Shown: positions 30-61,399 of the stretch, piece after piece
How positions within the stretch are numbered: position 1 is the first letter of the stretch
How the letters are laid out: each line of letters opens with the position of its first letter
NCBI GenBank assembly: GCA_017881585.1
Contig: JADGQS010000003.1
Coordinates: 1-61,840 of the forward strand
Source: Gemmatimonadaceae bacterium
GTDB taxonomy: Bacteria; Gemmatimonadota; Gemmatimonadetes; Gemmatimonadales; Gemmatimonadaceae
Direction of reading: 5' to 3'
Length of the DNA stretch: 61,840 nucleotides
The notes under the pieces: generated by a model
The model's input: the letters and a program-made list of their open reading frames with translations, nothing else
Database searches by the model: none
What the model was told of the DNA's origin: nothing
Translations under genes and position numbers: made by a program

Positions 30-1355
30 CTATTTCAAGTCGCGCCCGATGAACGCTTCGATCGCCGCCTTGGCCGTGCGCGCAGTGAAGCGCGCGTTGA
101 TGAGAAGAATTCGCTGAGAGTCGAGCGCCGTCTGCGACGTGAGCAGGTCGAGATACGAGGACGCGCCGAGCGCGTAGCGCGACTGCTGTGCCGAAAGATC
201 CTCCTGAGCCGCGGCGATCTGCAGCGTCTGCAGCTCGACCGTTTGCGCGGCCGTGCGGAACTGATCGATCAACTGGGCGAGCTGGGCCGTCGCATTGAAT
301 CGCGCGTCACGAAGTACGGCCTCAGCATTGTCCGCGGCGACCGTGGCCTGCATGCTGCTCAATTCACGGCTGAAGTTGTTGAAGATGGTGTAGCCCACGG
401 AGAACGTGTACTGCGTCTGAGTCGACGCCGCCGGACCGCCACCCCAGTTGAACGTGGGAGAAGTGAACCCACTCGCGTTGTAGATGTAGCTGGCGCGCAC
501 CTGCGGGATGTACTGGGATGTGAGCGTCGAGCGGCGCCCTTGCTTGGCCGCATCCAAAGCCGCGACCGCCTGCCTGACGCTCGGGCCGTCTTCGGCCATG
601 CGCGCAAGCGAGGCGTCGTCCACGTCCAGGCGGGGAACGTCGCTGGTATCGGATGCGACCGTAGTCACTGGAACATTCGATGCCACGAGACGAGTTAGCG
701 CCGCGTTCGCGTCACGCAGCTGCGCACGCGCATTGAGCAACGAGAGTTGCGCGCTGCCGACCTGGATCGCCGCCTTCAGCGAATCAGTTCGAACGACCTG
801 ACCCACCTTCACTTTCGCCGCCGACGCATTCAGCGCGACCTGCGCCTGCTCGAGCGCGCTCGCACCGGCAGCTTCCAGCTCGCGCGCCTGCAGTATGGCG
901 AAGTATTGCTGCTTCACGGTAGCCGCCACGCCATAGCGCTGAAGCGTTTCGTTCTCCTCGTTCGCCCGCTGACTTGCCAACGCCTGCCGATATCCGAAGT
1001 ACCGCTGACCTCCATCGAACAGCACCATGCTGGCGCTGTATCCCTTTCCGTAGTTCCAAGGATCGCCCTTGTATGGGAGCAACTGACCCTGTTGATAGAT
1101 GCCACCGGAAAAATTCGAGGCACCGTAATTGACGCTGAGGTTCGGCAAGTACTGACCGAGAGCGTTCAACTCGGTGAGCTTGCCGGTGCGAAGCGCATTT
1201 CGAGCGCTTACCGTCAGCGGCGAATTCATCTGCGCGAGTCGCACCGCCTCGTCGAGAGTAATCGGACGCGCGCCGTCGCCGCCCTGCTGCGCTGCCAGAA
1301 GCGCGGGCGCGGCCAGCAGGGCAAGAACGGCCATGCGATTTCGGAACAGTCTCAT
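30..1355 (-). CDS. TolC-family outer membrane efflux protein
   Basis: This is probably the outer-membrane exit duct for the RND pump encoded just downstream on the other strand. The protein has about 441 residues, which fits TolC/OEP proteins. It starts with a signal peptide (MRLFRN, then a hydrophobic Ala/Leu run ending in LLAAQ) and has the long Ala/Gln/Leu-rich helical repeats of the family. An in-frame upstream start would add 31 non-secretory residues. I chose ATG at 1355 because a clear AAGGAG ribosome site sits just before it. It is transcribed away from the NHL gene, leaving about 250 bases of shared upstream DNA. The family call is firm; the pairing with the pump is inferred from proximity. 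Confidence 0.9.
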   Translation of the reverse strand: MRLFRNRMAVLALLAAPALLAAQQGGDGARPITLDEAVRLAQMNSPLTVSARNALRTGKLTELNALGQYLPNLSVNYGASNFSGGIYQQGQLLPYKGDPWNYGKGYSASMVLFDGGQRYFGYRQALASQRANEENETLQRYGVAATVKQQYFAILQARELEAAGASALEQAQVALNASAAKVKVGQVVRTDSLKAAIQVGSAQLSLLNARAQLRDANAALTRLVASNVPVTTVASDTSDVPRLDVDDASLARMAEDGPSVRQAVAALDAAKQGRRSTLTSQYIPQVRASYIYNASGFTSPTFNWGGGPAASTQTQYTFSVGYTIFNNFSRELSSMQATVAADNAEAVLRDARFNATAQLAQLIDQFRTAAQTVELQTLQIAAAQEDLSAQQSRYALGASSYLDLLTSQTALDSQRILLINARFTARTAKAAIEAFIGRDLK

Positions 1356-1607
1356 GCTGCTTCTCCTTTCTCGATGCGATGAAGGACCGCTCTGCTGAAT
1401 GGCAACTTGTGTGCCGCGAACGACTTGGCCCAACTCCATCCCCTGCACAGGGTTGCGTTCGATCCGCCGATGCGCTTACGGGACCGGGCGTTCGAATTCG
1501 GGAATCGGCGGCCCGAAAGCGAACATGTCAACACGGGCACGACTCGCGGCAACACACCGGCCCGCATAGGTTGACCGTTCACCGCGCTTTGCCAAGGAGT
1601 CCATCTC

Positions 1608-2687
1608 GTGAGACGCTTCCAGGCCGTCCTGCTCGCCGCACTCGCTCTCGCCGCCACCAACGCGCCGGCGCAGCCGGTGCCCGCCATCCGGTTCGACGCG
1701 AGTATCGACTTCCTCAAGCTCCCCGCGAACCTGTACCTCGGTGAAGTCGCGGGAGTGGCGGTGAACTCGAAAGGACACGTGTTCGTGTACAGCCGCACGG
1801 GCGAACGCTCGACGGTCCACGGGGCCACCGCCGCGCAGCTGTTCGAGTTCCGACCTGACGGCGCGTTCATTCGCGAGATCGGGAAGGACCTGTACGGATT
1901 CGCCTTCGCCCACACCGTTCGCATCGACCGCGAGGACAACATCTGGGTGACGGACGAAGGCACGAACATGATCATCAAGTTCAATCCTGCCGGACGCGTG
2001 ACCATGGTGCTCGGGCGGCGCGAGGAAGCCGCGGAACCCGCCGCTCCACGCCCGGCGAATGCGCCAACGCCCGCTCCGGGATGGGGGTCGTTCAACCGCC
2101 CGACCGACGTCGCGTGGGACCCGCAGGGGAACGTCTTCATCAGCGATGGATACGCCAACTCGCGCGTCGTGAAGGTGGACAAGAACGGCCGATGGGTGAA
2201 GACGTGGGGCGAACGCGGATCGGGACAGGGCCAACTGAACACGCCGCACTCGATTGCCGCCGACGCGAAGGGCAACATCTACGTCGCCGACCGCGGCAAC
2301 CGCCGCATTCAGGTATTTGACAGCGACGGAGGGTTCCTCCGTCAGTTCACTATCGATGTTCCGTTCGCCGGAGAGCCGAACATCATGCTCGGATCCATGC
2401 CTGCTGCTGCGGGTACCGCAGGTGGCGGGGCGACCATGGCCTCCGGCGCTCCTTGGGCCATTTGCATCAATCCGGGCGCCAACCAGTTCCTCTACGTCGC
2501 CGACGCTGTGCCCGGGCGGATTTACAAGGTCACGCTCGACGGAAAGGTGCTCGGGACCATCGGCGAAGCCGGCAAGCAATTGAAGCAATTCGGCTGGATT
2601 CACGAGATTTCGTGCCCGTCGGAGAACTCCCTGTACGTGGCCGAGCTGCTCAACTGGCGGATGCAGAAGCTGACCCTGCATCCGTAA
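1608..2687 (+). CDS. Secreted NHL-repeat beta-propeller protein
   Basis: The 359-residue protein has a signal peptide (MRRFQAVLLAALALAATNAPAQ region) and several NHL repeats of the type 'GNVFISDGYANSRVVK' and 'GNIYVADRGNRRIQVF', which build a six-bladed propeller. Two low-complexity Pro/Ala and Gly/Ala stretches interrupt the repeats near residues 140-155 and 265-280. The start is GTG, supported by AAGGAG about nine bases upstream. NHL propellers bind proteins or small ligands; some act as peptidylglycine lyases, but no such motif is recognised here. It lies between the TolC-like gene and the RND genes, with no proven role in efflux. Confidence 0.85.
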   Translation: MRRFQAVLLAALALAATNAPAQPVPAIRFDASIDFLKLPANLYLGEVAGVAVNSKGHVFVYSRTGERSTVHGATAAQLFEFRPDGAFIREIGKDLYGFAFAHTVRIDREDNIWVTDEGTNMIIKFNPAGRVTMVLGRREEAAEPAAPRPANAPTPAPGWGSFNRPTDVAWDPQGNVFISDGYANSRVVKVDKNGRWVKTWGERGSGQGQLNTPHSIAADAKGNIYVADRGNRRIQVFDSDGGFLRQFTIDVPFAGEPNIMLGSMPAAAGTAGGGATMASGAPWAICINPGANQFLYVADAVPGRIYKVTLDGKVLGTIGEAGKQLKQFGWIHEISCPSENSLYVAELLNWRMQKLTLHP

Positions 2688-2812
2688 CCGCCCGAAAGGT
2701 GGCTGATGGTGGTCGCAAGCGACTTCGGGCCCTGGTGCGTAGAGCTAATTCGCGATGCTGCGGCCCCGAAGGAATTCAACAGCACCGCCCAACTTTCGAG
2801 CGACCATTCAAG

Positions 2813-4102
2813 ATGATACGTCCTCCACTCTCCGGACACGGCAGCTTCAAGCTCGTCGCGGCTCTCGGAGCGATCCTCGCTGCAGGTGCCTGTTCAAAGG
2901 CGCCTGCGAAACCGGCACGACCCGCCATTTCCGTGGCGGTCGTTCCCGTAAAGAAGGTGACGCTGCCCTACACCCTTGAGGCGAACGGCATCGTCACGCC
3001 GATTCAGACGGCCGCGGTCGCCTCGCAGGTCGACGGCATCATCCTCGATGTTCCCTTCGCCGAGGGATCGGAGGTGACAAAGGGACAGGTGCTCTTCAAG
3101 ATCGAACCGCACCAGTACCAGGCGGCGTACGACATGGCGCTGGCGCAGCTCGCCCGCGACCGCGCCACGGCGGAGAACGCGAAGAGGGACTACGCACGCT
3201 TCGAAACGTTGCGCAAGGAGAACGTCGTGTCGTCGGCGGACGCGGAGCTCAAGGCCGCTACCGCTGGGTCGACCCAGGCCACGGTCGAGGCCGATCTCGC
3301 CGCCGTTTCCAACGCGAAGTTCAACCTCGACAACACCACGGTGCGTGCGCCCATTTCGGGCCGAACCGGCAGCCTGCTGGTGCGCACCGGGAACCTCGTG
3401 CGTGCGGGTGCATCGACACCGCTCGTCGTGATCAACCAGGTGCGGCCGATCTACGTTCGATTCGCCGTTCCGGGATCGTTGCTGCCGCTCGTCCTGCAAT
3501 ACGGCGCCAAGGGCGGCTTGCCCGTGACGGCAACGGCCAGCGCCGCGTCGTCGCCCACAACGCCCAAGGACACATCGAGCTCCTCGATGGACGCCGGACA
3601 GAAGTCGAGTCTCCAGACGGTGAAGGTCGATCCGGCCGCGAGCAATCCGGACGGACACGGCACACAGACGTTCATCGATAACGCGGTGGACACGACGACC
3701 GGCACGGTGCAGCTCAGGGCGAAGTTCGCGAACGCGGGCGGCACGCTCTGGGCGGGACAATTCATGGCTGTCTCGATGCGACTGTTCGACGAGGAGGGCG
3801 CGCTCGTCGTCCCGTCGCAGTGCGTCGTCACGGGACAGCGCGGCACCTACGTATACGTAGTCGATTCGGCGAGCACCGCGTCGCTGCGCATGGTGAATGT
3901 CGAGCGTACGGCGAACGGCCTCTCGGTGATTTCGTCGGGCCTGAGCGAGGGGGAACGGGTCGTTTCGGATGGTCAGTCGCGCCTGACGCCGGGCGCGCCC
4001 GTTGATCTCCGGAGCGCGATGGATTCAGCCGGCGCGACGGGTCGCGGTGGCCGCGGCGGTGGTCGTGGCGGAAGGGGACGCGGCAAGGCACCGACGCCTT
4101 GA
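2813..4102 (+). CDS. RND efflux periplasmic adaptor (membrane fusion lipoprotein)
   Basis: This is the adaptor that joins the inner-membrane RND permeases to a TolC duct. The 429-residue protein starts with a lipoprotein signal (lipobox LAAGAC, Cys27). It then has the barrel-sandwich/lipoyl halves (for example 'VDGIILDVPFAEGSEV' and 'TTVRAPISGRTG') around a coiled-coil hairpin (residues about 100-160). The C-terminus is an unusual Gly/Arg-rich tail (RGGRGGGRGGRGRG). The open frame extends about 360 bases upstream over the previous gene, but ATG at 2813 gives the lipoprotein signal. No good ribosome site is visible. It lies 18 bases before the first permease. Confidence 0.92.
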   Translation: MIRPPLSGHGSFKLVAALGAILAAGACSKAPAKPARPAISVAVVPVKKVTLPYTLEANGIVTPIQTAAVASQVDGIILDVPFAEGSEVTKGQVLFKIEPHQYQAAYDMALAQLARDRATAENAKRDYARFETLRKENVVSSADAELKAATAGSTQATVEADLAAVSNAKFNLDNTTVRAPISGRTGSLLVRTGNLVRAGASTPLVVINQVRPIYVRFAVPGSLLPLVLQYGAKGGLPVTATASAASSPTTPKDTSSSSMDAGQKSSLQTVKVDPAASNPDGHGTQTFIDNAVDTTTGTVQLRAKFANAGGTLWAGQFMAVSMRLFDEEGALVVPSQCVVTGQRGTYVYVVDSASTASLRMVNVERTANGLSVISSGLSEGERVVSDGQSRLTPGAPVDLRSAMDSAGATGRGGRGGGRGGRGRGKAPTP

Positions 4103-4120
4103 TGCGGGGATGAGCGGGAC

Positions 4121-7100
4121 ATGAACCTCACCGGACTCTTCATCAGGCGCCCGGTCATGACGATGCTCGTCATGATCGGGATTCTGGTGTTCGGGATCAT
4201 CGGCTACCGGCAGCTGCCGGTGAGCGACCTCCCGACGGTCGATTATCCGACGATCAGCGTGAGCGCGAATCTTCCAGGCGCCAGCCCGGAGACGATGGCC
4301 GCCACCGTCGCGACACCGCTCGAGAAGTCATTCTCGGCCATCGCCGGCATCGACGAGATCACGTCCAACAGCAGTCTCGGATCGACGAACATTACGCTGA
4401 CGTTCGCACTCGACCGAGACATCGAGTCGGCGGCGCAGGACGTCAACGCGGCGATCTCCAAGACGCTCGCATTCCTCCCGCCGAATATCCTCCCGCCGAA
4501 TTATCACAAGCAGAATCCGGCGGCATCGCCGATCCTGAACATCACGCTGACGTCGAGCGTGCTGTCGATGCAGCAGATCGATGAGTTCGCCGAGACGACC
4601 ATCGGCCAGCAGCTCTCGATGGTGGAGGGCGTGGCGCAGGTGAACGTGATGGGCGCGAGCAAATACGCGGTGCGCGTGCAGCTCGATCCGGCCAAGCTCG
4701 CGAGCCTGGGGATCGGCGTCTCGCAGGTCGCCGCGGCGATCAGGAACAACAACGTCCTGCTCCCGACGGGCGTGCTCTACGGCAAGGACCGGACGCTCAC
4801 GATTCAGGCCACGGGGCAGCTGTCGAATGCCGCCGAGTTTAAGCGGTTGATCGTTTCCTGGAAGAACGGCGCGCCCGTAAGGCTGGGCGACCTCGGCAAC
4901 GTGCTGGACGACGTGCAGAACAACAAGGGAGGCGCCTGGTTCGGCAACGACCGGACCGTCTTCCTGATGATCAACCGCCAGCCGGGCACCAACACGGTGG
5001 AGATCGCGAGCAAGGCCAAGGCGATGCTCGCCGAAATCGAGAAGGGGCTGCCGAAGACGCTGAGCGTGCACATCCAGTACGACCGCTCCGTCTCGATCCA
5101 GCATTCCGTGAACGACGTGAAGTTCTCGCTGTTCCTGGCGCTCGGCCTCGTGGTGATGGTGATCTTCGTCTTCCTGCGCAACATCGTCGCGACGCTGATC
5201 CCGAGCTTCACGCTGCCGATGGCGATCGTGGGGACGTTCTCCGTCATGGCGCTGCTGAACTTCAGCATCGACAACCTGTCGCTGATGGCCCTCACGCTCG
5301 CGGTCGGGTTCCTCGTGGACGACGCGATCGTGATGCTCGAGAACATCTACCGGCATCTCGAGATGGGGAAACCGCCGATGCAGGCGGCGCTCGACGGCGC
5401 GCGGGAGATCGGCTACACGATCCTCTCGATGACGCTCTCGCTCGCCTCCGTCTTCATTCCGCTGATGTTCATGGGCGGCATCATCGGCCGGCTGTTCCGC
5501 GAGTTCGCGATCACCATCATGGTGGCGGTGCTCGTATCCGGATTCGTGTCGCTCACGCTGACGCCGATGCTCTGCAGCCGGCTGCTCAAGGCGCACGGCA
5601 CGGTGACACACGGAAAACTGTTCGAGTCGACCGAGCGGATCTTCGAGGGGGCGAAGCGCGGATACGCGCGCGCCCTCGGCTGGGTGATGCGCCACCGCCC
5701 GCTCACGCTCGTTTTTTCCGCCGTGATCCTCGCCCTGATCGGGACGCTCTGGACGATCATTCCCAAGGGACTGTTCCCGCCCGACGACACCGGATCGCTC
5801 AACGGCACGACGGAAGCGGCGCAGGGAACATCGTACGTCGACATGGTGCGGCTGCAGAAGATCGCGATGGGACGACTGGCGAAGGACACGAACATCGTTT
5901 CCTTCACCTCGTCGATCGGTGGATACGGCGGTGGAAATCAGGGAAATTTGAACGTCACGCTCAAGCCGCAGGGACAGCGCCCGTCGGCCGACGCGATGGT
6001 CGGCGAGCTCACGCGCCGGCTCAGCGGCATTCCCGGACTGGCGGTGTACTTCCAGAACCCGCCCGTGATTCGCATCGGCGGTCGGTCGGCGAAGACGCTC
6101 TACCAGTTCACACTGCGCGGACCCGACATCACCCAGCTCTACTCGGAGTCGGCCAAGTTTCTCACGAAGCTGCAGGCCGAGCCGATGCTCAGCGGCGTGA
6201 CGTCGGACCTGCTGAACCGCAGCCCGATTATCCGGGTGCGCATCGACCGCCATCGCGCGCTTTCGCTCGGCGTCACGCCCGCGAGCATCGAGAACGCGCT
6301 CGCGAACGCGTACAACCAGCAGCAGGTCTCCACGATCTACACCCCCACGAACGAGTACTGGGTGGTGATGGAAACGGTGCCGGAAGCACAGCTCGATGCA
6401 ACCGCGCTGCAGCGCTTCTACATGCCCGGCACGGGCGGGCGGCTGGTGCCGCTCGCCGATCTCGCCACGTTCGAGAACGTCGTGGGACCGCTGAGCATTC
6501 CGCATTCCGGGCAAATGGCGTCGGTGACGATTTCGTTCAACCTCGCGCCCGGCATCGCGCTCGGCGGGGCGGTCGATCACGTGAAGCAGGTCGCGGCGCA
6601 GACCCTGCCCGCGAGCATCACGGCCGCATTCAACGGCACGGCGCAGGCCTTCGAGCAATCGCAGAAGGGGCTCGGCCTCCTGCTGCTGATCACCGTGTTC
6701 ATCATCTACCTGATTCTCGGCGTGCTGTACGAGAGCTTCATCCATCCGATCACGATCCTCACCGGATTGCCGTTCGCGGCGTTCGGCGCGCTGGCCGCTC
6801 TGTACGTGACGAAGGTGGAGCTCGGCGTATACGGGTACGTCGGGATCATCATGCTGATCGGCATCGTACAGAAGAACGCGATCATGATGATCGACTTCGC
6901 GATCGCCACCGAGCGGGCCGAGCATTCGCTTCCCGCCGAGGCGATCATGCGGGCGGCGGTCGTCCGCTTCAGGCCGATCATGATGACGACGTTCTCCGCG
7001 ATCATGGGCACGCTCCCGATCGCGATCGGCGTCGGCGCGAGCGCCGCGTCGCGCCGTCCGCTGGGCATCGCCGTCGTCGGCGGCCTGGTCTTCTCGCAGG

Positions 7101-7243
7101 TCGTGACGCTCTTCGTCACGCCGGTGTTCTACACGTACCTGGACGAGCTACAGACGTGGTTCGGCCGCACGAGCAGGCGCTCCGCCGAGGGAGGTGCACT
7201 CGCTCCCGGCCTCGCGCACGCTTCCACGTCCGCGGGTAACTGA
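4121..7243 (+). CDS. RND multidrug efflux permease, first copy (MdtB/AcrB type)
   Basis: This is a proton-driven inner-membrane exporter of the HAE1 family, 1040 residues, the normal length. It has an N-terminal first TM helix (FIRRPVMTMLVMIG), two large periplasmic loops and twelve predicted TM segments. The proton-relay Asp pair is present in TM4 (GFLVDDAIVMLE), and the TM10 Lys is in 'IGIVQKNAIMMIDF'. It is followed after only 3 bases by a second, different RND permease. That arrangement is known from MdtABC, where two permeases form a heterotrimer. Confidence 0.95.
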   Translation: MNLTGLFIRRPVMTMLVMIGILVFGIIGYRQLPVSDLPTVDYPTISVSANLPGASPETMAATVATPLEKSFSAIAGIDEITSNSSLGSTNITLTFALDRDIESAAQDVNAAISKTLAFLPPNILPPNYHKQNPAASPILNITLTSSVLSMQQIDEFAETTIGQQLSMVEGVAQVNVMGASKYAVRVQLDPAKLASLGIGVSQVAAAIRNNNVLLPTGVLYGKDRTLTIQATGQLSNAAEFKRLIVSWKNGAPVRLGDLGNVLDDVQNNKGGAWFGNDRTVFLMINRQPGTNTVEIASKAKAMLAEIEKGLPKTLSVHIQYDRSVSIQHSVNDVKFSLFLALGLVVMVIFVFLRNIVATLIPSFTLPMAIVGTFSVMALLNFSIDNLSLMALTLAVGFLVDDAIVMLENIYRHLEMGKPPMQAALDGAREIGYTILSMTLSLASVFIPLMFMGGIIGRLFREFAITIMVAVLVSGFVSLTLTPMLCSRLLKAHGTVTHGKLFESTERIFEGAKRGYARALGWVMRHRPLTLVFSAVILALIGTLWTIIPKGLFPPDDTGSLNGTTEAAQGTSYVDMVRLQKIAMGRLAKDTNIVSFTSSIGGYGGGNQGNLNVTLKPQGQRPSADAMVGELTRRLSGIPGLAVYFQNPPVIRIGGRSAKTLYQFTLRGPDITQLYSESAKFLTKLQAEPMLSGVTSDLLNRSPIIRVRIDRHRALSLGVTPASIENALANAYNQQQVSTIYTPTNEYWVVMETVPEAQLDATALQRFYMPGTGGRLVPLADLATFENVVGPLSIPHSGQMASVTISFNLAPGIALGGAVDHVKQVAAQTLPASITAAFNGTAQAFEQSQKGLGLLLLITVFIIYLILGVLYESFIHPITILTGLPFAAFGALAALYVTKVELGVYGYVGIIMLIGIVQKNAIMMIDFAIATERAEHSLPAEAIMRAAVVRFRPIMMTTFSAIMGTLPIAIGVGASAASRRPLGIAVVGGLVFSQVVTLFVTPVFYTYLDELQTWFGRTSRRSAEGGALAPGLAHASTSAGN

Positions 7244-7246
7244 CCG

Positions 7247-10200
7247 ATGAATTTCACGACCCTCTTCATCAAGCGTCCGGTCATGACGACGCTCGTCATG
7301 ATCGGCATCCTCGTCTTCGGCATCGTGGCGTACCGGCAGCTGCCGGTGAGCGACCTGCCGAACGTGGACTTTCCGACGATCACGGTGACCGCGATGCTGC
7401 CGGGCACGAGCCCGCAGACGATGGCCGCCACCGTCGCGACGCCGCTGGAGAAATCGTTCTCGACGATCGCCGGCATCGACAACATGACGTCCACGTCGAG
7501 CCTCGGGCAGTCGCAGATCGTCGTGCAGTTCGCCCTCGACCGCAACGTGGACGCCGCCGCGCAGGACGTGCAGGCCTCCATCGCCCAGACGCTCCGGCAG
7601 CTTCCGCAGGGGATCATTCCCCCGTCGTACCAGAAGACGAATCCGGCCGACGCGCCGATCATGACGCTCGCGCTCACGTCCACGGAGGTGCCGCTCTCGA
7701 CGCTCGACGAGTACGGTGAGACGACCATCGCCCAGCGGCTCTCGATGGTCGGCGGCGTGGCGCAGGTGCTCGTGTACGGCGCGCAGAAGTACGCGGTGCG
7801 GCTGCAGATGGATCCGTCGGCGCTCGCGACGCGTGGCATCGCGCTCGAGGACGTCGTGACCGCCGTGACGAACCAGAACGTCAACCTGCCGACGGGCGTG
7901 CTCTGGGGGCCCAAGACCGCGCTGACCGTGCAGGCCACGGGCCAGCTCGACAGCGCAAGCGCGTTCGGCGACATCATCGTCGCATATCGCAACGGCGCGC
8001 CCGTTCACCTCAGCGAAGTCGGGCACATCACCGACGACGTGCAGAACAACAAGACGGCGAGCTGGTACAACGGAGCGCGCTCGATCGTCCTCGCCATCCA
8101 GCGTCAGCCGGGCACGAACACCGTGGATGTCTCCGCGCGCGTGAAGGCGGCGCTCGCGCGGATCCAGACCGAGATTCCCCCGTCGGTGAAGGTCGACATC
8201 CTCTACGACCGTTCGGCGACGATCCAGGCCTCGGTTCAGGACGTCACCTTCACGCTCGAGCTGACGCTGGCGCTGGTGGTGCTGGTGATCTTCCTGTTCC
8301 TGCGCAATTTCTCGGCGACGTTCATCCCGAGCCTCGCGCTGCCGATGTCCATCATCGGCACGTTCTCGGTGATGTACCTCCTGAACTACAGCCTGGACAA
8401 TCTCTCGCTCATGGCGCTGACCCTCGCCGTGGGCTTCGTGGTGGACGACGCGATCGTGATGCTCGAGAACATCGTGCGCCACCTCGAGATGGGAAAGCCG
8501 AAGCTGGAGGCCGCGATCGACGGCGCCTCGGAGGTCGGCTTCACGATCCTCTCGATGACCTTCTCGCTCGCGGCCGTGTTCATTCCGTTCCTGTTCATGG
8601 GCGGCATCATCGGCAAGCTCTTCCACGAGTTCGCGGTGACGATCGGCGTGGCGATTCTCGTCTCCGGCTTCGTGTCGCTGACGCTCACGCCGATGCTCTC
8701 CAGCCGGTTCCTGCGGTCGTCGCATGCCGACCAGCACGGCAGGCTCTACCAGATGAGCGAGCGCTTCTTCGACGCGTGGCTCGGCCTGTACGAGCGGACG
8801 CTCGCCACCGTGATGCGGCACCGCCCCGCGACGCTCGTGTTCTCGTTCGTGATCCTCGTCGCGACGGGCTACCTGTTCTGGTCCACGCCCAAGGGACTCT
8901 TCCCCACCGACGACACGGGCCAGCTGCTCGCGACGACGGAAGCGGCCGAAGGCGTGGGCTTCGACGCGCTCGTGCTGCACCAGCAGGAAGTGGCCGCGAT
9001 GGTCGCGAAGGATCCCGACGTCAAGTCCGTGACGTCGTCCGTGGGGACCACGGCGGCGGCCAATCAGGGACAGCTGACGATCGACCTCAAGCCCATCACG
9101 GAGCGCAAGCGCAGCGCGGACCAGATCGGGCGCGACCTCTCGAAGACGCTGCTGCAGGTGCAGGACATCGCCGTGTTCGTCCAGAATCCGCCGGCCATAT
9201 CAATCGGCGGGCTCGCGTCGAAGAGTCTGTACCAGTACACGCTGCAGGGCGGCGACATCACCACGCTCAACAGCGCCGCCGCGCAGCTCGAGGCGCGTTT
9301 GCGCCAGCTGCCGATGCTCGCGGACGTCACGAGCGACCTGCTGATCGAGAATCCGCAGGTCACGGTGGAGATCGACCGCGAATCGGCGGGCCAGCTCGGC
9401 GTGTCCGCGAGCGAGATCGAGAACAACCTCTACGACGCGTTCGGCCAGCGGCAGGTGTCCACCATCTACACCGCGACGAACGAGTACTGGGTCGTGATGG
9501 AGCTGCTGCCGAAGTACCAGCAGGACGTGGACGCGCTCGGCAAGCTCTGGGTGCGCTCGACCCGCGGCCCGCTCGTGCCGCTCAGCGCCGTCGCGAAATT
9601 CACGTATTCGGTCGGACCCGTGACGGTGAATCACTCGGGACAGCTGCCGTCCGTGACCATCTCGTTCAACCTCGCGCCGACGGCGTCACTCGGGACCGCG
9701 GTGGACGCCATCACGAAGGAGTCCGCGCTGCTGCTGCCGGCCAACGTCTCGGCGCGCTTTGCCGGCACGGCGCAGGCGTTCATGGCAACGCAGCAGGGGC
9801 TCGCGCTCCTCCTCGTGCTGGCGGTGTTCGTCATCTACATGATCCTCGGCGTCCTCTACGAAAGCTTCATCCATCCGATCACGATCCTCACCGGGTTGCC
9901 GTTCGCGGCGTTCGGCGCGCTCGTCACGCTCCTCCTCTTCGGGCTCGATCTCGACATCTACGGATTCGTCGGCATCATCATGCTCGTCGGCATCGTGGAG
10001 AAGAACGCGATCATGATGATCGACTTCGCGATCGAGACGGAGCGCAAGGAGCACAAGGCGCCGGCCGAGGCAATCCTGCAGGCGGCGAGCGTGCGTTTCC
10101 GGCCGATCATGATGACGACGATGGCGGCGCTGATGGGCGCGCTGCCGATTGCGTTCGGATGGGGTGCGGGCGCGGAGACGCGGCGGCCGCTCGGCGTGGC

Positions 10201-57555: not shown

Positions 57556-59160
57556 TCACTTGATCGCCTGCCGAAGCACGTGGCCGTCGAGCTTCTCCAA
57601 TGGCCTCACCCCCGCGAGTTCCGCCAGCGTGGGAGCCATGTCCACCACGCGAACGAAGCCTGCAACCCTGCCCGCCTTCACGCCGTCGCCGTAGAACAGC
57701 ACCGGCACGTGCGCGTCGCTGTCGTGCGGCGATCCATGCGTCGGATAAGACGCGGGCGCCCAGTAGCTGTACGGCGTGAGGGTTATCATGAGCCGCGCCG
57801 CGCCGTCGGGCGCGAACATGTGCAGCCAGCGGCGCGCGACCACGTCTGTCGTCGTGTCGTCCTTCGCGAGAGACGTGACGAGATCCGCGCGGAGCACACC
57901 GTCGACGCGTCTCACGTCCTTCGCGAAACTCTCGATCGCCGAATCGGCGCGCACATGGGCCTTCGCGAACGCCTCCGGCTTCTCGACCACGACCACCGCG
58001 GCGTCCTCGAGCGACACGGCTGCCGAATCCACGCCCGCGGCGGCGAGCCGCGCGCGGAACGCCTTCCACGCGGGCGCGATCGACACGACCTTCGCGTCGT
58101 GGTTCGGATAGATCGTCGACTTCATCGCGGGCAGCGGCGACATCCCGTGATCGGCCGTGAGTGCGATCACCACGCGCTGACGGTCGCGCATCTTGAAGAG
58201 CGAATCGAGGAACACACCGAGGTAGCGATCGAGGCGCAGGATATGATCGTGCATCTCGCGCGAGTCCGGCCCGAACGCATGCCCCACCGCGTCGGTCGTC
58301 GAGAGCGAAATCGCCAGAACGTCGGTGCGGTTCTGCGAACCTCCGAGCCCGAGCTCCTTCAGGCCGGCGAGCGCGAACTGCAGCGTGATCTCGTCCATCC
58401 ATGGATACGCCGCGGCCGACCTCGCGGCCGTGAGCGAGTCCTCGGACACGAAATGCGGAAAGGTGTAGTTCGCGCCGCGGTTTTCGGCCGGCACGCTGTC
58501 CGGCTCGGGATAGGCGCTCTCCGGCAGCAGCAGCGTCCACGCCTTCCCGGCGTACCGCTGCCCGGGTTTGCGCGCGTTGAACCGCTGCACCCACGTGGGG
58601 AGCGAGTCGCGGTAGTAGCGGCTGGTGCTGAACGTTCCGTTTGACGACGTCCACCAGTACACGTCGCCCTTGCTGCGCCCGATCGGAAGAATTGCACCGC
58701 GGTCCTTTCTCGATACCGAGAGGAAGCGCGTCTGGGGATTCGCCGCCTTGAGCCAGTCGATGAGCGTCGTGCCCTGAAAACGGACCGGCGAAGCGGGAAG
58801 GTCGGAGCGATCCGAGCTGCCGATGATCGCTGCGTCGGGGACACCGTTCACGCCGGCAGAGTTCATCGTGATCCCCGTGTGAACCGGGAACCGGCCCGAC
58901 AGGGTCACCGAATGTCCCGGCGCGGTTTCCGTGATCGCGTGATCCTGATATCCGTCGACGAAGAACGCACTGCGGTCGAACAGCGTCCGCAGGCCCCCGG
59001 TCAGCTGTTTATCGAAACGCTGGAAGTAGTCGGAGCGCATCTGGTCCACCGTGATGAACACGATGAGCGTCGGGCGTGGCGTCGCCGAAGGCTGCTGCGC
59101 CGTGGCACATGCCGCAACCAGCGAAAACGGCAGTGTGATCAGGAACGTGCGGAATCGCAT
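57556..59160 (-). CDS. PafA-like alkaline phosphatase lipoprotein
   Basis: The 534-residue exported lipoprotein (LVAAC lipobox) has the alkaline phosphatase fold: 'LIVFITVDQMRSDYFQRF', nucleophile Thr in 'ITETAPGHSVTLSGRFPVHT', 'SLSTTDAVGHAFGPDSREMH', 'LTADHGMSPLP' and late 'THGSPHDSDAHVPVLFYGDG'. The Thr nucleophile is the PafA/NPP group feature, indicating a broad phosphomonoesterase or phosphodiesterase in the periplasm. It is the first gene of the five-gene minus-strand cluster. Confidence 0.93.
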   Translation of the reverse strand: MRFRTFLITLPFSLVAACATAQQPSATPRPTLIVFITVDQMRSDYFQRFDKQLTGGLRTLFDRSAFFVDGYQDHAITETAPGHSVTLSGRFPVHTGITMNSAGVNGVPDAAIIGSSDRSDLPASPVRFQGTTLIDWLKAANPQTRFLSVSRKDRGAILPIGRSKGDVYWWTSSNGTFSTSRYYRDSLPTWVQRFNARKPGQRYAGKAWTLLLPESAYPEPDSVPAENRGANYTFPHFVSEDSLTAARSAAAYPWMDEITLQFALAGLKELGLGGSQNRTDVLAISLSTTDAVGHAFGPDSREMHDHILRLDRYLGVFLDSLFKMRDRQRVVIALTADHGMSPLPAMKSTIYPNHDAKVVSIAPAWKAFRARLAAAGVDSAAVSLEDAAVVVVEKPEAFAKAHVRADSAIESFAKDVRRVDGVLRADLVTSLAKDDTTTDVVARRWLHMFAPDGAARLMITLTPYSYWAPASYPTHGSPHDSDAHVPVLFYGDGVKAGRVAGFVRVVDMAPTLAELAGVRPLEKLDGHVLRQAIK

Positions 59161-59333
59161 GAGGTGGGCGGGAGAGGCGGTGCGATGGAGTCGGTTGTGC
59201 CGGGGCCGCTGTAGGATGCGGGTGGGCTATGGGACCCGCCAGTGGTGTCCCTCGGTTGACCCCCCCGTGACCGGCCTGCAAGTTCTATCTCGGCGCCCGC
59301 CCCGGCGCGAGGACTTCGATGAGGAGGTCGTTG

Positions 59334-60365
59334 ATGGCCCGCCGGTCAGCCCCCGTGCCAATCTGGTCGAACATCCTCCTCAGAACGGTGCTCTACTACG
59401 CCGTATTGGGGGTCCTGCTCTATTGGCTGAAGGGACTCTCCGTCGGCGGGCTCCCGCTCGATGACGACACGGCGGCACTGATTACCGGAGTGGGCAAGAA
59501 GGCCGCGGCGAAGGGGTTGCCGGTGGAAACCGGTTCCGCCTCGCTGCACGTCTTGATCGCGATGATGAGCGCCCTCCTGTTCTCCATTCCGGTCGCGTGG
59601 ATCTACACGATGACCCACAGGAAGAAAGGGTGGAAACAGGGGACGGTGCAGAGCCTGGTGATTCTCCCGGTGGTCATCGCCGGCATCGTGGTGCTCCTCA
59701 AGTACAGCCTTGCCCTCGCCTTCGGCATGGCGGCGATCGTCGCCGCCGTGCGGTTCAAGAGCGCGCTGAACGACACCAGGGACTCGGCATTCATGCTCTG
59801 TGGAATCGGCATGGGGCTCTCTGCGGGCGTCGTGCCGGAAATCGCCGGCGTGCTCTCGTTCGTGTTCAGCGCGGTCGTGGTCGGGATGTGGTACGCGGAC
59901 TTCGGCCGTGCTCCGGCTGCGCTCGAGGGCAAGCTGGCGGAGGCGACGCTCGAGCGCGCGCTCGAACACGCGAGCCGGACCGGCACCTTCGTGGCGCGCA
60001 TGGACGACGAAGTCTTCAAGTCGCTCGCCCCCGACCAGCTCGAGGCCATCGCCGACCGCGCGTGGCGCCGCCGCAAGCGCAACGCGCCCGACCTCGCCGA
60101 CGAAGACCGCACCGTCACGCACGAGGACTACAGCTCGCTGCTGCGCATTCGCACCGCCTCACCCGACAAGCTGCGCGACGCGGTCGAACCGGAATTCGCA
60201 AACCTCTTCAAGCGCTGGCGTTTCGGCGATGTGCTGCACGAAGACGACGGACTGCACACCGTCGAATACGCGGTCGAACTCGGCAGCACGGTCACTCCGG
60301 GCGTCGTGAGCGATACGCTCCGCGCCGTGGCCGCGAATCACCTCGTGCGACTGGAGCTCCGATGA
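59334..60365 (+). CDS. DUF4956 membrane protein
   Basis: The 343-residue protein has four predicted TM segments in the first 190 residues, with the DUF4956 core 'LVILPVVIAGIVVLLKYSLA', 'FGMAAIVAAVRFKSALNDTR' and 'FMLCGIGMGLSAG'. The soluble C-terminus (about 200-343) is a charged helix/sheet domain. In other bacteria DUF4956 proteins sit next to VTC-type polyphosphate polymerase and CotH-like genes; here only the kinase-like gene follows, in an ATGA overlap. A strong GAGGAGG site precedes the ATG. Confidence 0.85.
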   Translation: MARRSAPVPIWSNILLRTVLYYAVLGVLLYWLKGLSVGGLPLDDDTAALITGVGKKAAAKGLPVETGSASLHVLIAMMSALLFSIPVAWIYTMTHRKKGWKQGTVQSLVILPVVIAGIVVLLKYSLALAFGMAAIVAAVRFKSALNDTRDSAFMLCGIGMGLSAGVVPEIAGVLSFVFSAVVVGMWYADFGRAPAALEGKLAEATLERALEHASRTGTFVARMDDEVFKSLAPDQLEAIADRAWRRRKRNAPDLADEDRTVTHEDYSSLLRIRTASPDKLRDAVEPEFANLFKRWRFGDVLHEDDGLHTVEYAVELGSTVTPGVVSDTLRAVAANHLVRLELR

Positions 60366-61399
60366 ACGCTCGTCATCACAAAACCGTGATTGCCGCGATC
60401 GCCGCGATCACGATCGTCGCGCCGCGCGCTCACGCGCAGCGCCTCTTCCGCACCGATTCGACGCTCACGGTGACGATCACGACCGACCTCGGCCCCCTGT
60501 TGAAGCAGCGCGACAGCCTCGAGTTGGTGAAGCACCCGGCGGTGTTCTCGTACGATGCCGACGGAAAACCGGTGAGTGTGCGCGTCAGGCTGCGCGCGCG
60601 CGGCCATTTCCGGCGACAGGCGCACAACTGCGACTTCCCGCCGCTCTGGCTCGATGTGAAGTCGTCCGACGCAAAACAGACGGTGCTGTCGGGGCTGAAC
60701 AAACTGAAGATCACCACCAGCTGCAGGCCGAAGTCCGCCGAGTACGAGCAGTACATCCTGCAGGAATACGCCGTCTATCGCGCCTACGCCGCGCTCACCG
60801 ACGCCAGCTTCCGCACGCGACTGCTGCGCATCACGTATCGCGACACGGCAGGCAAGGTCGCCCCGATCACGACATCGGGATTCTTCACCGAGGTTGCCGA
60901 GGACGTCGCGAACCACCTCCAGCGGAAGGTGCTGCCGGCGAAGGGCGCGAGATTCGCCGACCTGCAGCCCGAACCGCTGTCACTGCTCAGCGTGTTCGAA
61001 TATTTCATCGGAAACACCGACTGGTCGATCTCCGGCCTGCACAACATCGCGCTGCTGCAGGACAGTACGGCCGAGGCGATACCCGTCGCGTTCGATTTCG
61101 ACTGGACCGGCGCGGTCGATGCGCGCTACGCGTTTCCCGACAAGACCCTGCCGATCCGCAGCGTCACGGAACGGCTCTACCGCGGCAATTGCATGACGCC
61201 GGACCAGTTCAAGACCGCGATCGACCGGTTCCGCTCGAAACGCGCGGCGATTGATGCGGTGTTCACTCAGCTGCCTCAGCTCGCGCCCGACCGCGCGAAG
61301 TCGATGAAGCGGTTCTTCGACGACTTCTGGAAGCGTACCGACGATCCCCGCGGCCTCCAGAAGGAGTTCGCGGGAGACTGTCAGAGGGGCGGGAATTAG
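60362..61399 (+). CDS. Exported kinase-like protein (CotH/HipA-like motifs)
   Basis: The 345-residue protein has a signal peptide (to HAQR). The middle reads like the CotH group: 'VRVRLRARGHFRRQAHNCDF' and 'YILQEYAVYRAYAALTDASF'. A kinase-type active-site pattern follows: 'YFIGNTDWSISGLHNIALL' (Asp then Asn of a catalytic loop) and 'PVAFDFDWTG' (DFD metal site). It is therefore a candidate atypical kinase outside the cytoplasm, possibly acting on envelope proteins or carbohydrates. ATP supply in the periplasm is an open question. It is coupled to the DUF4956 gene (ATGA). Confidence 0.6.
   Translation: MNARHHKTVIAAIAAITIVAPRAHAQRLFRTDSTLTVTITTDLGPLLKQRDSLELVKHPAVFSYDADGKPVSVRVRLRARGHFRRQAHNCDFPPLWLDVKSSDAKQTVLSGLNKLKITTSCRPKSAEYEQYILQEYAVYRAYAALTDASFRTRLLRITYRDTAGKVAPITTSGFFTEVAEDVANHLQRKVLPAKGARFADLQPEPLSLLSVFEYFIGNTDWSISGLHNIALLQDSTAEAIPVAFDFDWTGAVDARYAFPDKTLPIRSVTERLYRGNCMTPDQFKTAIDRFRSKRAAIDAVFTQLPQLAPDRAKSMKRFFDDFWKRTDDPRGLQKEFAGDCQRGGN

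Follow-up and report, generated by a model that had tools for sequence, protein, structure and literature searches.

The analysed stretch of DNA (the window, 61,840 nucleotides from a Gemmatimonadaceae bacterium) was found to carry the gene for a putative exported kinase, P0001, which belongs to a family that is widespread in bacteria and so far has neither a name nor an annotation. Within the CotH group P0001 likely represents a divergent branch, and it is predicted to be catalytically active. Its gene is coupled to one for a DUF4956 membrane protein, and as the divergent neighbour encodes a PafA/PhoK-type phosphatase, a three-gene locus is the better description. In relatives the neighbouring genes encode polyphosphate-making enzymes and secreted phosphatases, which suggests a polyphosphate-fed phosphorylation cycle outside the cytoplasm. 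The window corresponds to contig C224 in a draft genome (3.1 Mb, 90% complete) whose close relatives are Gemmatimonadota MAGs. It contains the following features:

57556..59160, minus strand: divergent PafA/PhoK-type alkaline phosphatase P0003 (534 aa; PF01663, 1.8e-29; N-terminal lipobox-like LVAAC)
59319..60365 (alternative start 59334), plus strand: DUF4956 membrane protein P0002 (348 aa; PF16316, 4e-9)
60362..60365, plus strand: ATGA stop/start overlap of the DUF4956 and kinase genes
60362..61399, plus strand: putative exported CotH-like kinase P0001 (345 aa; predicted signal peptide at about residues 1-25)
61010..61045, plus strand: predicted catalytic-loop motif GNTDWSISGLHN (residues 217-228; D220 and N228 invariant)
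61094..61102, plus strand: predicted metal-site motif DFD (residues 245-247; both Asp invariant)

P0001 and its family

The kinase ORF starts at the ATG within the ATGA that closes the DUF4956 ORF (TGA at 60363-60365), an overlap described in the first-pass annotation together with a signal peptide and a GNTDW..HN and DFD pattern like that of CotH/HipA-type kinases. The N-terminus, MNARHHKTVIAAIAAITIVAPRAHA with cleavage predicted before QR, displays a Sec/signal-peptidase I pattern (h-region 2.87, AxA) by a heuristic rule only, and the same simple rule is satisfied by 109/134 members of the family. Both sequence motifs are present. In an alignment of 83 homologues from three phyla, with identities down to 29%, G81, R84, C90, C121, E135, D220, N228, D245, D247 and R271 were invariant, while K116, R80, R153, E177, N218 and H227 each differed in one sequence. 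As the catalytic-site residues are identical in all homologues, the motifs are more than a chance resemblance; poor conservation of the Asp and Asn residues, named earlier as an argument against a kinase, was not seen. Homologues are present in 161/395 Gemmatimonadota genomes, and a scan of public genomes disclosed at least 580 loci, 80 of which were kept; these belong to Gemmatimonadota, Bacteroidota (Marinifilum, Spirosoma, Runella, Fibrella and others) and Gammaproteobacteria (Woeseiaceae and others).

P0001 alone gave no useful match in Pfam, NCBIfam or the PDB sequences. A match to AcrF2 (Pfam 0.046, PDB 0.4) was below the cut-off and occurred in 1/83 relatives, and was set aside as due to chance. 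Pfam CotH (PF08757) was matched by 13/83 relatives at E<=1, the best at 1.6e-8, against 2/83 for the next family, and one Gemmatimonadota member (L044) scored 29.0 bits, the curated cut-off being 23.8. Profile searches found no PF08757 match for P0001 itself or anywhere in the genome of the window; the family profile had no match in the PDB, and NCBIfam gave no credible match. When the family was aligned with canonical CotH of the same phylum using hhalign, D220, N228 and D245/D247 fell on the D..N..DxD of CotH, in a weak alignment (E=0.018, probability 2.5%). The catalytic and metal-binding Asp residues of B. subtilis CotH, D228 and D251, whose substitution (D228Q, D251A) inactivates that enzyme (PMC7821199), have their likely counterparts in D220 and D245/D247, invariant in the P0001 family.

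The AlphaFold model of P0001 is confident (pLDDT 93.7, pTM 0.90), and on this model the protein very likely adopts a kinase fold. Its best Foldseek matches in the PDB are PI3K gamma/delta, PI4K, HipA and HipT, with probabilities up to 0.99 and weak statistics (E 4e-3 and above, TM-score about 0.3-0.37); CotH itself (5jd9) is absent from the top 50. The profile and structure comparison with CotH and HipA proposed in the first-pass annotation thus points to atypical kinases as the best, though weak, structural matches, and the predicted structure lacking a kinase-like lobe that would have spoken against the assignment was not obtained. Together with the PF08757 matches and the conserved catalytic residues, this supports the reading of P0001 as a CotH-type kinase. 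The P0001 family shares with CotH the order of motifs, RG(N), K, E, NxD...N and DxD, as well as the kinase-like fold, but is compact, predicted to be exported, has two invariant Cys residues (C90, C121) and a D-to-N spacing of 8 (or 15-16) residues, and occurs in no spore context; where a genome has both (for example G236), canonical CotH is a separate gene. The HipA/HipT toxin kinases resemble the P0001 model with Foldseek probabilities of 0.95-0.99 at E-values of only 0.015-0.017. The HipA family profile did not match P0001, and a single HipA_2 match at 0.01 occurred among the 83 relatives. As P0001 is predicted to be exported and has no HipB-type antitoxin partner, its neighbours being DUF4956 and a phosphatase, a HipA-type toxin was rejected as a resemblance of fold only.

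The DUF4956 and phosphatase partners

The assignment of the upstream neighbour to DUF4956, made in the first-pass annotation, is borne out, P0002 matching PF16316 above the cut-off (E=4e-9; 36.9 bits, cut-off 30.6). The P0002 model has about 5-6 membrane helices (residues 19-193) of modest confidence, the membrane part being low-confidence (pTM 0.50), and a confident C-terminal beta-alpha-beta-beta-alpha-beta domain (residues 273-347) of the ferredoxin/ACT-like type. A matching architecture was described independently for Streptococcus intermedius SIR_1592, in which MgtC-type helices are combined with an ACT domain and whose gene is grouped with those for a polyphosphate polymerase and a secreted CotH (PMC12345266). 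Coupling of the two genes is conserved: among Gemmatimonadota, DUF4956 occurs in 144/161 family-bearing genomes vs 63/234 others (Fisher p=3e-37, odds ratio 23), and the DUF4956 gene adjoins the kinase gene in 64/110 loci, in several gene orders. It is also found near the kinase gene in Bacteroidota and Gammaproteobacteria, orders and orientations varying over the three phyla. As 17/161 family-bearing genomes have no DUF4956, it is not obligatory.

The exported phosphatase is a second partner, absent from the first-pass annotation. P0003 is similar over its full length to solved PafA/PhoK structures in the PDB (3q3q, 2.2e-52, residues 15-529; PafA 5tj3, 1.3e-47). A gene of this type lies beside the kinase gene in 43/110 Gemmatimonadota loci and stays there where DUF4956 is gone (L186-L188, L199, L200). 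In 19/41 loci of Bacteroidota and Gammaproteobacteria the neighbour is instead a metallophosphoesterase with a signal peptide, whose catalytic domain resembles the Shewanella PPP phosphatase (1v73/2z72, 1e-58); one BLAST candidate, L119, has ankyrin repeats only and was dropped from the count. In Marinifilum the phosphatase, DUF4956 and kinase genes stand in a row, and one Gemmatimonadota locus (L063) combines DUF4956 and the kinase with a Shewanella-like PPP phosphatase. That two unrelated types of phosphatase can stand in for each other next to the same kinase speaks for a functional pairing of kinase and phosphatase. The neighbouring exported phosphatases belong to the known Shewanella-like PPP and PafA/PhoK families, but a description of their linkage to a CotH-like kinase was not found in the open-access literature searched.

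A few other features of these loci were recorded. The Gammaproteobacteria PPP phosphatases (L087 808-2730, L088 3001-4818, L125 1979-3808, L126 2971-4776) bear at the C-terminus an additional domain (about 200 aa), the sequence of which recalls secreted kinase-like proteins and for which no Pfam or PDB match was found. In Bacteroidota, exported fusions of ankyrin repeats and a PPP phosphatase adjoin the kinase (L070 3294-4868, L083 2895-4583, L082 6043-7647), and in Bacteroidota of the Spirosoma type (L074, L092, L101, L114, L120) a gene for a PycTM-like (Pycsar effector) membrane protein is convergent to the kinase gene.

Polyphosphate polymerases

The first-pass annotation referred to DUF4956, CotH and a polyphosphate polymerase as known neighbours, and this gene set, with a VTC-type polymerase, is indeed known from Pel clusters (PMC7112168, PMC12345266). 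The window locus shares with the triad a putative secreted CotH-type kinase coupled to a DUF4956 membrane protein with a cytoplasmic ACT-like domain, but has no VTC-type polymerase gene; in P0001-type loci VTC is replaced by PPK1 (adjacent, as CYTH-PPK1, as a DUF4956-PPK1 fusion, or unlinked) and an exported phosphatase is added. The search for VTC genes elsewhere in the genome, suggested earlier, gave no PF09359 match at the profile level, and VTC is absent from 158/161 family-bearing genomes. Mere loss of VTC from the triad was rejected as the full explanation, since G236, of the same genus, carries the canonical set on contig C39 (L182) and the two-gene form on C38; given this coexistence, the two-gene form is to be seen as an independent system rather than a mere remnant of the triad. 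The set on C39 is a canonical triad in a Gemmatimonadota genome, known here from its CotH, VTC and DUF4956 genes alone; CotH-VTC-DUF4956 synteny has been reported as not found outside Pel loci (PMC12345266).

The earlier statement that the polymerase is missing, leaving a two-gene form, is true of the locus but incomplete, as PPK1 is encoded elsewhere in the genome and is kinase-coupled or fused to DUF4956 in many relatives. The single PPK1 gene of this genome (G000:C145, L302, 2812-5055) is unlinked to the kinase gene and is flanked by a ppx/gppA-like gene on one side and by phoU/pst genes on the other, the neighbours being named from reading their translations. In 22/110 loci, from 12 genera and three families and in several gene orders, the kinase has a PPK1 gene no more than 5 kb away; 80 of the 110 loci (L222-L301) were fetched in list order, and 20/80 have PPK1 within this distance. 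The chance expectation is <1% per locus, as genomes carry one to three copies of PPK1, and PPK1 adjacency requires at least 12 changes on a tree of 151 kinases. Directly adjoining kinase and PPK1 genes are mostly separated by -21 to +83 bp, as is typical of operon coupling, and several of the coupled PPK1 proteins bear an N-terminal CYTH domain. The window lacks an adjacent PPK1 gene, and the loci examined from Bacteroidota and Gammaproteobacteria had none nearby either. No Pho box was found above chance upstream (5 in the window vs 4.84 expected).

DUF4956 and full-length PPK1 form a single ORF, with the PPK1 catalytic His motif intact, in five Gemmatimonadota genomes:

L069 (G310), 4777-7512: DUF4956-PPK1 fusion, directly after the kinase gene
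L073, 5960-8773: DUF4956-PPK1 fusion, directly after the kinase gene
L201 (G050), 3960-6878: DUF4956-PPK1 fusion
L202 (G327), 801-3581: DUF4956-PPK1 fusion
L203 (G220), 3929-6721: DUF4956-PPK1 fusion

No paper on such a fusion was found in the open-access literature searched. DUF4956 is thereby tied to two unrelated polyphosphate polymerases, VTC and PPK1, and PPK1 is the likely answer to the missing polymerase of the window locus.

The proposed phosphate donor

The linkage of two unrelated polymerases to the same membrane protein and kinase type, fusions included, allows a specific and testable proposal on how secreted bacterial kinases obtain their phosphate. By analogy with yeast VTC, in which polyphosphate synthesis is coupled to translocation via a membrane channel (PMC9911596), DUF4956 may do the membrane part of polyphosphate transfer. 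We give an even chance to the proposal that the locus encodes an extracytoplasmic kinase/phosphatase pair fed with polyphosphate via DUF4956, its donor, substrate and transport being inferred. P0001, a putatively exported and active phosphotransferase of the divergent CotH branch, would form with the inner-membrane DUF4956 protein and the exported phosphatase a phosphorylation/dephosphorylation module outside the cytoplasm. Phosphate would most likely be supplied as polyphosphate by a cytoplasmic polymerase, VTC-type in the triad and PPK1 in the P0001 branch, and DUF4956, with its ACT-like regulatory domain, would deliver it across the membrane or regulate its delivery. The kinase would then move phosphate onto a protein or glycan via the D220/N228/D245-D247 site, and PafA here, or the Shewanella-like PPP phosphatase elsewhere, would take phosphate off or trim the donor. 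The broader proposal, that exported kinases use polyphosphate from PPK1 or VTC, delivered or regulated by DUF4956, as donor for reversible extracytoplasmic phosphorylation, is tentative, the chances being somewhat against it. If true, some bacteria phosphorylate outside the cytoplasm on polyphosphate rather than ATP; and as the kinase family is common and unannotated, a single biochemical demonstration would allow many genomes to be annotated and a likely function to be assigned to DUF4956.

To our knowledge the periplasm has no supply of ATP, which counts against a scheme where the exported CotH-like kinase uses ATP or another nucleotide reaching this compartment, DUF4956 and PPK1 being linked only by shared phosphate physiology. 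Such a scheme seems doubtful, even though ATP binding is usual for kinase-fold enzymes, K116 and E135 are conserved and PPK1 might regenerate nucleotides. Characterised CotH, that of B. subtilis, does phosphorylate CotB with ATP as donor in vitro (PMC7821199), but the operon coupling, the DUF4956-PPK1 fusion and the known VTC coupling (PMC7112168) would be left unexplained. The linkage to both VTC and PPK1, the CYTH domain on PPK1 and the broad phosphatases found as partners would also fit polyphosphate export and recycling, with DUF4956 as the exporter, the kinase-like protein anchoring polyphosphate to, or transferring it onto, a polymer or protein of the envelope, and the phosphatase degrading it to recover phosphate. 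The position of PPK1 beside pst/phoU genes in the window genome agrees with this, as does the altered Pel-dependent aggregation of S. intermedius CotH/DUF4956 mutants (PMC12345266). It is nonetheless unlikely, since the PPP protein-phosphatase type present in two phyla would suit protein substrates equally well or better. Non-catalytic proteins are known among those with a secreted kinase fold, and the activity of the P0001 family is predicted from sequence and model, but that P0001 is an inactive kinase-fold binding protein is very improbable, since the equivalents of the catalytic Asp, Asn, metal Asp, Lys and Glu are invariant or nearly so in the 83 sequences from three phyla.
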